Shown piece by piece: positions 8,999 to 20,648 of a stretch of 34,546 nucleotides of DNA. The DNA lies in assembly GCA_028824555.1 (NCBI GenBank), contig JAPPDJ010000171.1, positions 1-34,546 of the forward strand. Direction: 5' to 3'. Within the stretch, counting starts at the first letter, position 1, and each line of letters starts with the position of its first letter. Source of the stretch: Gammaproteobacteria bacterium. GTDB taxonomy: Bacteria; Pseudomonadota; Gammaproteobacteria; Pseudomonadales; Azotimanducaceae. Below the pieces are notes generated by a model. That model did no database searches. It worked only from the letters and a program-made list of their open reading frames with translations, and was not told where the DNA came from. Both the position numbers and the translations under genes were made by a program.

Positions 8999-11900
8999 TT
9001 ACGGCCCGATGGACTCGCTCGGTTTCCTGGTCTCGATCAGCAGCCGAGCTACCCGATCGCCGTCGCCGCGGCTGACCGCGTCCCCCCGTGGCGCTGTGCG
9101 GTCGAGCGCGAGCCAGCGCAGCGCCGTTAGCCGTCCGAGTGGGGTCAAGTCAGCGATTGGATTCCCGGCCAGACGCAGCCACGCGAGCTTCGGCAGCCCG
9201 CCGAGTACCGAGACGTCGTGCAGCCGGTTCCCGGCGAGGTCCAGCCGCCGCAGCGACCGCACGTCGCGCAGCAGGGCCGCGTCCGCCACGCGATTGTCTG
9301 CGAGGCCCAAGTGGGCGAGGTGCTGTAGGCCCCACAGCGGCACCAGGTCCACGACCTCGTTGCCGTCGAGCAGCAGCACTTCGAGACGGCGCAGTTCCGA
9401 GAGCGGCCGAAGGTCGGTAACGCGGTTGCCCGACAGGTCGAGGCGGCGCAGGGTCGTCAGTCCGGCCAACGGCGACAGGTCCGAGACCGCGTTCCCCGAG
9501 AGGTCGAGCACGCGCAGGTGCGGGAGGCCGGCGAGCGCGGAGAGGTCGTCGACCGCGTTGCCGCCGAGGTCGAGCACTTCGAGGCCGGCCATGCCGGCGA
9601 GCGGCCACAGATCGTCGACGCGGTTGTCGCCGAGGTCGAGTGCTTCCACGTCCGCAAGGCCCGCAAGCCCGGACAGGTCGGACAGGCCGCTCGCCGACAG
9701 GTAGAGAACCTCCACCTTCGCCGCGCCCCACGATCCCTTCTCTGGCGGACCGATCGGCGCAACGCCCCGGTCCACTGACCGGGCATGCCGGATCGGCCGG
9801 GCGGTAAGCATCGGCACCGGGTTGTACGAGCCGTCCTGCAACGGGTGCATGGCCCCGGGCAGGTAGCTCACGGTCACGGGCTCGGCAGGATCGACCGCTC
9901 GCGTCAGCGTCAGCGCCGCCGCTCCGCCGGCCACCGCCACAGACTCGACCGGCACCGCCGCCGGCGGGCTGCCCGCCGCCACCACGAAGTCGCCCGGCGA
10001 CGGCACCGAGCCGCCGTCCAGCGGCCGGTCGAAGCGCAGCGTCAGCAGCGATCCAGACAGCGCCGCGTCCGCGAGCGAGTTGCCCGACGCCGCCCCGCAC
10101 GACACCCCGGCGTCCTCCGAGTGCCGGCAGTTGTGCAGGCCCCAGCCCCCGAACGGGCAGTCCGCCAGCCGCGACTCGCTGCCCGTGCACTGCACGTCGT
10201 CCATCCAGATCGTCCCCGTGCCGGCGCCGAAGTGGGCTCGGGTGTGCGCCTGGCCGCCGGTGAGTCCGAGCTGCCGACAGACCACCGCCGCGTCGTCCGA
10301 GACGAAGCGGTCGTCGCACACCGTGCCCCACTCGCCGTTGTGGTGGATCTCCAAGCGGCCTTCCTGGTCCGTGCTGCCGCCCACCAGGCGCACGTCCCCC
10401 TCGGCGGCGACGTCCGCCTCTGACGCCGCATCCGTGCGCGCGGATGCCGACGCCGACCAGTCGCCGGCGCCCTCGCCGTTCGTCGCCCGTACGCGGACTT
10501 CGTAGGCGGTGTCGGCGGTCAGGCTCTCGATGCGCTTCGTGGTGCCGGTGCCGGTGTGGCTTGCGTCGGTCCAGTTCCCGCCCGTCTCGCGGTAGTGGAC
10601 GTCGTAGCCCGCGATCGCCGCGCCGTTGTCCGCCGGTGCCGCCCACGACACGTCGATCCACGTCTCCCCGGTCGTCAGCGTCGGCGCCGAAGGCGCGTCC
10701 GGAGCCTCGACCGCCGCGTCCGTCCGACCGGACGCCGCCGGCGACCAGTCGCCCTCACCCTCGGCGTTCGACGCCCGCACCCGCACCTCGTAGGCGGTGT
10801 CGGCGACGAGCCCGGTGATGCGCCTTGTCGTGCCCGTGCCGGTGTGGCTTGCGTCGGTCCAGTTCCCGCCCGTCTCGCGGTACTCGACGTCGTAGCCCGT
10901 AATCGCCGCCCCGTTGTCCGCCGGCGCCGCCCACGACGCCTCGACCCACGTCTCCCCGACTGTCAGCGTCGGCGCCGAAGGCGCGTCCGGAGCCTCCGCC
11001 GCGGCGTCCGTGCGTGCCGACGCCGACGCCGACCAGTCGCCGGCGCCCTCGGCGTTCGTCGCCCGCACGCGGACTTCGTAGGCGGTGTCGGCGGTCAGGC
11101 TCTCGATGCGCTTCGTGGTGCCGGTGCCGGTGTGGCCTGCGTCGGTCCAGTTCCCGCCCGTCTCGCGGTACTCGACGTCGTAGCCCGCGATCGCCGCCCC
11201 GTTGTCCGCCGGCGCCGTCCACGACGCCTCCAGCCACGTCTCCCCGGCCGTCAGCGTCGGCGCCGAAGGCGCGTCCGGAGCCTCCGCCGACGGGCCGGGG
11301 ATCGTCGCCGTCGCCGGGGCGGACAGCGGACGTCCGTCCGTCGTGCAGATCGCTCCCGCCCCCGTGCAGCCACCGGTCGTCGCCGGAAGCCTCACCGTCA
11401 CGTCGCCGTCGCCCGAAGGCCGGATCCACAGCAGCCACCGGTCGTACACATGGGGGGCGACCCGGCGCCTGCCCGCGACCGTGCCGCCGGTCACCTCAAG
11501 GGCGTCCTGGACCGCCTGGTTCTTGTCGAAGTCCTCGCTGCCGTCGAACACCGCCTCGGAGAAGACGAGCTGCAGCGTGAACACGCTCGACCCGTCGTGC
11601 TCGTCCGGCCCGTTCTCGAACCAGGCCGTGAGCGTCGCCTGCGCCGCCGTGTTGTTGGTCACCGTCCGGTCGGTGAAGGACGCCACCTGGTTGCCGGCGG
11701 CATCCTGGAGCGTGTTCGCCGTGCCCGATGTCGGCGGGGTGTAGCTCACCGTCACCGCGTCGGTCGAGACCACCGCCGCGGCGAGCGTCAGCGTCACAGT
11801 CACACCGCCGATCGAGGGAGAGCCGGTGAGCGCCACGGTCGTCTCCGATCCCCCCGACGGGGTCTTCTTCACCGTGAACGCACTGTTCGCGAGGCTCGCG

Positions 11901-19460: not shown

Positions 19461-20648
19461 ATGCGCGGCCCGGTGACGGACGAAGCGACCTTCGGCCGCA
19501 TCCTCGCGTCACTCCACGAGGCAGCGCTCGACCCCGCCCGCTGGCCCGACTTCTCGGCCGCGGCGGAGGAAGCCCTCGGCCTGCATGGCACCAGCCTGAT
19601 GTTTGGCGACGGGGAGCTGGCGTCCGGCGAGGACGCCCGGATCGCTTTCTATTGGACCTGCATCCACGGCGAACGGCGGCTCGACCTGGAGCGTCTCTAC
19701 ATCGGTACCTACTACCCCTTGGACGAGCGGACCCCGCGCCTGCGGCATGCGCCGGACGGGCGGCTCTTGCACAACACCGAGGTCCTAACCCCCCGGGAGA
19801 TGAAGACTTCGCCGGCTTACCATGCGCTCCGTGAGTATGCCGACGCCGGGGACGCCGTGACGGTGCGCCTGGACGGCCCTCGCGGATCGCGCATCCTGTG
19901 GACGCTACACGATCCCATCGACCGTGACGGCTGGACGTCCGCACGGACCGACCTGATCCGCCGCCTCCTGCCGCACCTACGCCAGGCCGTGCAGATCCAA
20001 GTGGCGCTAGGCGGTGCCGGCGCCTTGGGCATGACGCTGGCGCGCCTGCTCGAGACCGTCGGCATGGGCGTCATCCAGCTCGACCGGCGGGCGCGCATCG
20101 TCGCGGTGAACGGCCCGGCCCTGGGCCAACTGCGGAGCGGCGACGCACTGTTCGACGCGGATGGGTGCCTGTTCGCCCGCGCGGCGGCAGCCAATGCGGA
20201 ACTGCAGGAACTGCTGGCGCGCGCCCTGCCGCCGTTCGGAACCCCGGCAACGGGCGGCTCGATGGCCGTGCGGCGCCCTGCGGGCGCGCCGCTCGTCCTG
20301 CACGTGGTTCCGGTGGGCGGCCCGGAGACGCACCCGGGGCCCTGGCCCGTCGCCGCCCTCGTCCTGGTGCCAGACGCCGTCGCCGCCGACGTGGACGCCG
20401 GCGCGGTCGCCGAGACGCTCGGCTTCACCCGCGCCGAAAGCCAGGTGGCGGTGCTGCTGGCGCGCGGCATGACCGTGCGCGAGGTGGCCGCGGCGACAAG
20501 CCGCGGCGAGAGCACGGTGCGCTCCCACGTCAAGCGCATGTTCGCCAAGCAGGGTCTCACCCGGCAGCGGGAGCTCGTGCGCCTAGTCCGGTCTGTCGCG
20601 GGCGCGGCCGTCCTCCGCCCGGACGGCTCCGACGCGTCCGGCGCCTAG
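19461..20648 (+). CDS. LuxR-family helix-turn-helix regulator
   Basis: A 395-aa regulator (ATG 19461; in-frame GTG 19473 is an alternative). The C-terminal 60 residues are a LuxR/GerE HTH: LGFTRAESQVAVLLARGMTV, then a recognition helix region with ESTVRSHVKRMFAKQGLTR. The N-terminal 150 residues (ILASLHEAALDPARWPDF and a PAS/GAF-like region with VIQLDRRARIVAVNGPAL) resemble the sensor half seen in uncharacterised LuxR regulators in Proteobacteria; no acyl-homoserine-lactone-binding motif is obvious. It is divergent from the giant genes and shares a palindromic box with them. It is the likely regulator of the island (inference). Confidence 0.85.
   Translation: MRGPVTDEATFGRILASLHEAALDPARWPDFSAAAEEALGLHGTSLMFGDGELASGEDARIAFYWTCIHGERRLDLERLYIGTYYPLDERTPRLRHAPDGRLLHNTEVLTPREMKTSPAYHALREYADAGDAVTVRLDGPRGSRILWTLHDPIDRDGWTSARTDLIRRLLPHLRQAVQIQVALGGAGALGMTLARLLETVGMGVIQLDRRARIVAVNGPALGQLRSGDALFDADGCLFARAAAANAELQELLARALPPFGTPATGGSMAVRRPAGAPLVLHVVPVGGPETHPGPWPVAALVLVPDAVAADVDAGAVAETLGFTRAESQVAVLLARGMTVREVAAATSRGESTVRSHVKRMFAKQGLTRQRELVRLVRSVAGAAVLRPDGSDASGA

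Follow-up and report, generated by a model that had tools for sequence, protein, structure and literature searches.

A putative LuxR-type switch with its own operator at genes for giant, eukaryote-like repeat proteins in a gammaproteobacterium

We found that a luxR-type gene and two genes for giant proteins share a palindromic box within the window, i.e. the whole stretch of 34,546 nucleotides that was analysed (contig C2 of a host genome of 4.2 Mb in 182 contigs), and the pairing of luxR, box and giants is itself real. The explanation that we regard, as a whole, as quite likely is that the LuxR protein is a class II activator at this box. A LuxR dimer would bind TCCCCAA-N2-TTGGGGA centred approximately 43 bp upstream of the transcription start and would recruit RNA polymerase to promoters that have a -10 but no recognisable -35 element, thereby switching on its own gene together with giant secreted or surface proteins. 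A weak second site over the luxR start, present in many relatives, would cap the level of LuxR, and the N-terminal domains would sense a small molecule, perhaps derived from the host or the symbiont community. The regulator and the two giants would constitute a cassette located at the end of a tRNA gene. Promoter geometry, co-occurrence, regulon content and an empty site are observed in the sequences, and from these we infer binding, activation, autorepression and a ligand.

An earlier note on this DNA had described three related 20-mers, and all three were confirmed at 14296-14315 (minus), 19219-19238 (plus) and 19139-19158 (minus). The second and third share 19/20 and 15/20 letters with the first, as counted there, and each points at its gene: giant 1 (minus), luxR (plus) and giant 2 (minus), respectively. 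The features of the window are as follows.

8834..20880, no strand: 12-kb unit, here but not in two relatives (empty-site comparison)
8999..14254, minus: giant 1, 1751 aa (called gene, domain search)
14273..14278, minus: -10 hexamer TAGGGT of giant 1, offset 37 from box start
14301..14316, minus: operator dyad of the giant 1 promoter, one outer pair broken (sequence)
14371..18816, minus: giant 2, 1481 aa (called gene, domain search)
19115..19120, minus: -10 hexamer TAGGGT of giant 2, offset 38
19145..19158, minus: weaker operator CACCAACTTTGGGG of the giant 2 promoter (sequence)
19218..19233, plus: operator dyad TCCCCAATGTTGGGGA of the luxR promoter (sequence)
19257..19262, plus: -10 hexamer TATGCT of luxR, offset 38
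19263..19276, plus: candidate degenerate second site over the inferred luxR start, weak, 5 mismatches in the window
19461..20648, plus: LuxR-type regulator, 395 aa if counted from the likely ATG; its open frame starts at 19299
20886..20973, minus: tRNA gene whose 3' end is the start of the 12-kb unit (tRNA-Ser CGA in the two empty-site relatives)

Few copies of the box exist in its own genome. CCCCAATRTTGGGG has exactly two exact places in the 4.2 Mb, both within the window (reversed control, 0), and the wider CCCCAANNTTGGGG has five (reversed control, 0; approximately 0.5 expected from base composition). The genome scan that the earlier note had set as a test therefore gave no multitude of copies, and refutation by abundance failed. 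Within the window, the count at up to three mismatches was not unusual (nine matches; 7 of 100 shuffles reach nine), and because this count is uninformative, the significance of the box was judged from exact sites, promoter geometry and relatives.

The three window promoters have one signature: a dyad (TCCCCAANNTTGGGGA at best), [AG]CGCG at the -35 place, and a -10 hexamer 37-38 bp from the box start. In the window, [AG]CGCG is seen right after the dyad at 14297-14301, 19140-19144 and 19233-19237. Among 37 distinct exact boxes read in both orientations (the genus and G021 stretches, with six outside stretches, L067 to L072, excluded), TA[CT][AG]NT occurred 18 times, and in 16 cases its offset was 37 or 38. 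The dyad centre lies 30.5-31.5 bp before the -10, and hence at about -43 if the -10 begins at -12. LuxR activators, like the lux box, usually sit near -43. We also compared 14 luxR promoters with 29 others, both sets being drawn from boxes with up to one mismatch and TA...T at offset 36-39 in the genome stretches and six titled loci; promoters lacking the TA...T hexamer, e.g. that of luxR in G014, fall outside both sets. [AG]CGCG stood at offset 14-19, the -35 place, in 23 of the 29 non-luxR promoters. In relatives, luxR promoters mostly show ATGCG or other letters where the non-luxR ones have [AG]CGCG.

A search for the full promoter across 16 same-genus genomes (up to three mismatches, two spacings) returned 24 and 27 matches versus 4 and 2 for the reversed control, with 41 distinct places in all. 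Genome-wide, it recovered the weaker giant 2 box with two mismatches, and the matches in the window's own genome were the three window promoters and two others, one before an HlyD/RND pair and one, with three mismatches, before a di-haem oxidoreductase, neither of which is a giant. Exact boxes at G000:C24 and G007:C46 are without the -10 signature. At these two places (G000:C24:24178 in L061 and G007:C46:23852 in L086), the exact palindrome is flanked by an AraC-type gene and an Ig/cadherin giant within a conserved stretch. At another locus (L103, 7865-7944), one dyad seems to serve two divergent promoters, those of luxR and of a 1586-aa giant. Six exact boxes outside the genus and G021 (G016, G018, G024 with two, G032 and G057; L067 to L072) were considered as regulon sites and rejected as chance-like, five being inside called genes and one without a nearby gene start; one of the five intragenic boxes is also 198 bp before the next gene.

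The luxR promoters carry a second, imperfect site, CCCCAACATGGG, after the -10 at offset 43-44 (once 53) and over the inferred start. With up to three mismatches to the dyad allowed, it was found in 9 of 14 luxR promoters (2-3 mismatches) and in none of the 29 others (p = 4e-6). Since a site that touches the -35 region can also block RNA polymerase, and since this second site looks repressive, LuxR might instead bind the box as a repressor of the giants; for PteF, a PAS-LuxR regulator, some genes are reported to rise on its deletion. We nevertheless consider repression of the giants improbable. The box occupies about -50 to -36, and with [AG]CGCG replacing the -35 element in those 23 non-luxR promoters, box promoters should be weak without an activator. 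Moreover, two reports describe PAS-LuxR proteins whose 16-bp dyad lies in the -35 region mainly as activators (PMC9774167, PMC6448028).

Activation by LuxR, the reading that we prefer, is consistent with the way in which the box tracks luxR across genomes. Close LuxR genes (E below 1e-120) are present in 10 of 58 genomes, and exact boxes were found in nine of these 10 versus 7 of the 48 genomes without one (p = 9e-6). Restricted to the genus, the figures are 8/9 versus 2/7 (p = 0.035), where two of the seven members without close luxR, G001 and G009, are 81 and 74% complete. Full-promoter matches separate the same-genus genomes further (9/9 with close luxR, 1/7 without; p = 0.0009). The box is upstream of the luxR orthologue at 8 of 10 loci as an exact match and at 9 of 10 with up to one mismatch. 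In G002, luxR is split between contigs and there is no exact box, and G007 and G012 have one exact box each with no close luxR. Of the titled loci, 14 reach at least 54% identity (L093 to L106; seven of them look identical to contigs of the genome loci), and of these 14, 11 have an exact upstream box, L101 and L104 have one with one mismatch, and L099 has none. Exact boxes are present in only three of 66 more distant loci (L107 to L172), namely L125, L142 and L161, and in L161 the box is not upstream of its luxR. The possibility raised beforehand, that the box might be absent beside orthologous genes, was thus not borne out, as it stands beside luxR orthologues and related giants. The nearby LuxR-type protein had been named as the candidate binder, and this is supported by the position of the box at its own promoter, by the co-occurrence across genomes and by box letters that follow the LuxR phylogeny, from which binding would follow.

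Another regulator of the genus might bind the box, with luxR merely one target, and the neighbouring Fur-family protein is an example: its gene adjoins the island (21140-21613) and also adjoins luxR in G008. This is very unlikely. Fur orthologues with 78 and 90% identity are found in G007 and G009, both without a luxR match, but the full-promoter search returned nothing in G007 (one exact box without a -10) and a single three-mismatch place in G009. Only the window and G008 have the Fur protein among 18 luxR-bearing stretches searched for it (the window included, and three contigs counted twice), and the box letters change with the LuxR clade. That the palindrome is a mobile repeat or a transcript hairpin rather than an operator can practically be dismissed: it is palindromic and lies in a cassette present or absent between relatives, but its spacing to the -10 is fixed, its copies per genome are few, and, C24 and C46 excepted, the flanks of most sites are unlike by eye beyond the dyad, [AG]CGCG and the -10.

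The genes behind the box in relatives suggest a common regulon in the genus, with LuxR as its putative activator. Targets are the luxR orthologue and giant subtilase, sulfatase, Calx-beta, CARDB and cadherin/FN3/SRCR/LRR proteins. G008 has the most exact boxes (12). One serves luxR, and each of the other 11 precedes a called gene whose product has at least 859 aa; two of these genes are cut by an end, one has its called start upstream of the box, and some of the boxes also have a shorter gene on their opposite side. Using Pfam, subtilases were identified among regulon members in G008, G010 and G011, along with CARDB, a TonB receptor and one 3992-aa protein bearing 28 Calx-beta repeats; G010 also has a sulfatase fused to FN3, SRCR and LRR domains. 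Two regulon proteins had a sub-threshold DUF5719 alone, and Pfam gave nothing for that of L054. Targets other than giants include a thioredoxin-like protein (G011) and, in other genomes, proteins of the TauD, PLP decarboxylase, GNAT, Rieske and Na/Pi types. At one locus (L188, G066:C34), genes for a GNAT protein, PLP decarboxylase and TauD dioxygenase beside luxR each have a box of their own in front, a set that might represent a taurine-like metabolic arm of the regulon.

The luxR and giant 2 genes are divergently oriented. In the window open frame of luxR, the alignment with most orthologues starts at residue 43-60, and the ATG at 19461 is therefore the likely start of the gene. The predicted layout of the protein is an AHL-receptor-like fold, followed by a PAS-like domain and a GerE helix-turn-helix, in a model with a mean pLDDT of 76 and a pTM of 0.55 that does not fix the placement of one domain relative to another. 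The modelled N-terminal domain aligns with CepR2 (5l10; TM 0.67 when normalised to target length and 0.33 to query length) and with the ligand domains of CviR (TM 0.63) and VqsR (TM 0.60), while the matches to the LuxR model ranked highest by Foldseek E-value are bacteriophytochromes (TM 0.16-0.28), not AHL receptors. By Pfam, GerE is present in 14 of 15 aligned members as well as in the window protein, and PAS_8 in 7 of the 15 but not in the window protein, in whose model the strands at 203-304, preceded by another domain, would fit a PAS fold. Pfam gave no autoinducer-binding match in the window LuxR or the aligned members, and no receiver or LOV domain. The AHL-receptor-like and PAS-like domains of the model probably sense a small molecule, and the ligand perhaps comes from the host or the symbiont community.

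NarL binds inverted heptamers with a 2-bp gap. The helix-turn-helix of the window LuxR matches those of NarL, EL222 and GerE by sequence, but the receiver and LOV domains of the NarL/EL222 group have no Pfam match in it. With AHL receptors and LuxR solos (CepR2, CviR, SdiA, RhlR) it shares a GerE helix-turn-helix and an operator near -43, and its modelled N-terminal fold resembles their ligand domains; it differs from them in the absence of a Pfam autoinducer-binding match and in the extra PAS-like domain. The closest known architecture is that of the PAS-LuxR activators (PimM, PteF and their Streptomyces kin), which have a C-terminal LuxR helix-turn-helix in common with it and a PAS domain to which its PAS-like domain may correspond, and which, in two reports, bind a 16-nt dyad-symmetric site in the -35 region of regulated promoters (PMC9774167, PMC6448028). 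The window promoters likewise have a 16-bp dyad at the -35 region at a fixed distance from the -10. However, the window LuxR has an additional predicted N-terminal AHL-receptor-like domain, a box stands in front of its own gene whereas PimM is reported not to regulate pimM, and its putative targets are largely giant proteins rather than antibiotic clusters. The operator is also TCCCCAANNTTGGGGA and not CTVGGGAWWTCCCBAG, the consensus given in PMC9774167. By analogy, the window LuxR may work like a PAS-LuxR activator, but its operator letters set it outside that group.

More distant homologues may extend this picture. At 17 of 69 distant LuxR loci, a 7-N2-7 dyad with at most one pair broken has a TA...T at centre +30/31, versus approximately 0.9 per 2-bp bin elsewhere, and the letters differ (CCTCCCA, CCCGTAA, CCATCAA, CCTTCAC and others). 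Perfect 7-bp dyads upstream of LuxR genes exceed shuffles most at gap 2 but also at gaps 0, 4, 5, 6 and 8, and so gap length alone was not taken as proof. In the joint test of dyad and -10, a peak at centre +30/31 is seen for gap 4 too (14 of 69 loci versus 17 for gap 2, one broken pair allowed); since even gaps have a common centre, this test shows the place of the centre and not the gap. Box letters follow the LuxR tree, built without the helix-turn-helix for 38 loci with such a dyad: T-type/C-type changes numbered 3 versus 12.7 when shuffled, and 0 of 500 shuffles were as low. Across 13 genomes chosen for their LuxR loci, CTCCCANNTGGGAG was found in 5 places and CCCCAANNTTGGGG in 7, all in G064 alone, the Defluviicoccus MAG of L159. 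Both searches landed on further LuxR paralogues, two in number and each behind its searched box, so that G064 has three LuxR paralogues with three boxes, that of the L159 paralogue being CCCTCCC. Some boxes among the picked genomes fit poorly: L177 and L183 have no -10, and L175:6697 and L178 have no called gene in reach.

Tentatively, and at somewhat less than even chances, we propose that a large three-domain LuxR family in symbionts of several phyla, perhaps tied to sponges, might act as private switches, each lineage and each paralogue with its own 16-bp operator in one fixed promoter frame, controlling separate regulons of giants, and that regulator, operator and giants might be passed on jointly in cassettes. 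Private operators in many symbiont phyla are supported in part by these sequence comparisons. If true, private operators would let one cell run several separate regulons of giant host-facing proteins, and LuxR proteins with differing operators form a natural series on how the LuxR fold chooses DNA. By eye, an outer T accompanies 20 of 20 R[STY]H recognition helices versus 1 of 18 W helices; as independent evidence this coupling was rejected, being confounded by descent with only 2-3 independent pairs, in a tree-based count that read one W row, L166, as not W.

The giants are built of eukaryote-like repeats. Giant 1, with an N-terminus that by eye resembles a signal peptide, has three cadherin-like beta-sandwich domains, choice-of-anchor R in two stretches, SWM repeats, three FN3 domains, SRCR and an internalin-like LRR. 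In giant 2, an FGE-sulfatase-like domain and CARDB come first, followed by cadherin-like, SWM, two FN3, SRCR and LRR domains, so that the two C-terminal ends are alike (FN3, SRCR, internalin-like LRR). The FGE-like domain of giant 2 has the FGE-sulfatase fold, and its best NCBIfam match, PvdO, is below that model's cut-off. From the predicted promoter, the giant 2 leader would be approximately 290 nt, and Rfam had no match upstream of this gene. A surface location and a role in host attachment are presumed for both giants.

The bacterium itself probably lives in marine sponges, because contigs of the same genus match sponge-type records. The contig scan kept 80 of 93 relatives, and 34 of the 80 have record names RHO, COS, IRC, APA or Spongia. 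The SB, CO and MP bins we take to be sponge MAGs. The names RHO, COS, IRC, APA and Spongia fit sponge hosts of PMC8163846, on our reading of prefix as host. There, sponge MAGs are described as enriched in cadherin and FN3 genes, and cadherin, FN3 and most repeat families, including LRR, as enriched among laterally transferred genes (PMC8163846). Its main text has 0 occurrences of LuxR, and the window adds a putative control of such eukaryote-like repeat proteins. In the openly licensed literature, we found no paper on how sponge-symbiont cadherin/FN3 genes are switched on and no description of a luxR-giant pairing with a box; the putative control of eukaryote-like giant genes by LuxR and a box is what is new here. 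A named regulator, an operator and a target list make this control testable, and the box is a sequence tag for further candidate host-interaction genes in uncultured symbionts.

Finally, the region had been called a self-contained island, and 8834-20880 is indeed absent from two relatives. In G009 and G014, a cleanly empty site is located at the 3' end of tRNA-Ser(CGA), with window position 8829/8833 joined to 20882/20881 and 12,047 bp missing, and the neighbours around it are 79-98% identical in G009 and 88-99% in G014. The unit comprises luxR and the two giants with their promoters and contains no further called gene, and its G+C is 0.71 versus 0.65 in the flanks. Of the features of a mobile island, the empty site at a tRNA end was found, but there is no integrase among the called genes of 8834-20880 and no direct repeat at the unit edges, where the longest exact stretch common to both is 10 bp; gain and loss therefore both fit. 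In G008, a giant, luxR and the Fur gene follow the order of the window, with tRNA-Leu genes between luxR and Fur. G009 has no luxR match, in a genome that is 74% complete. In G014, luxR sits elsewhere in the genome and a boxed, fragmented giant is kept near the empty site. At L200 (G014:C229), the box (at 10067) and its -10 are present and the downstream matches to the giants are fragmentary (82-9733), which looks like a decaying copy.
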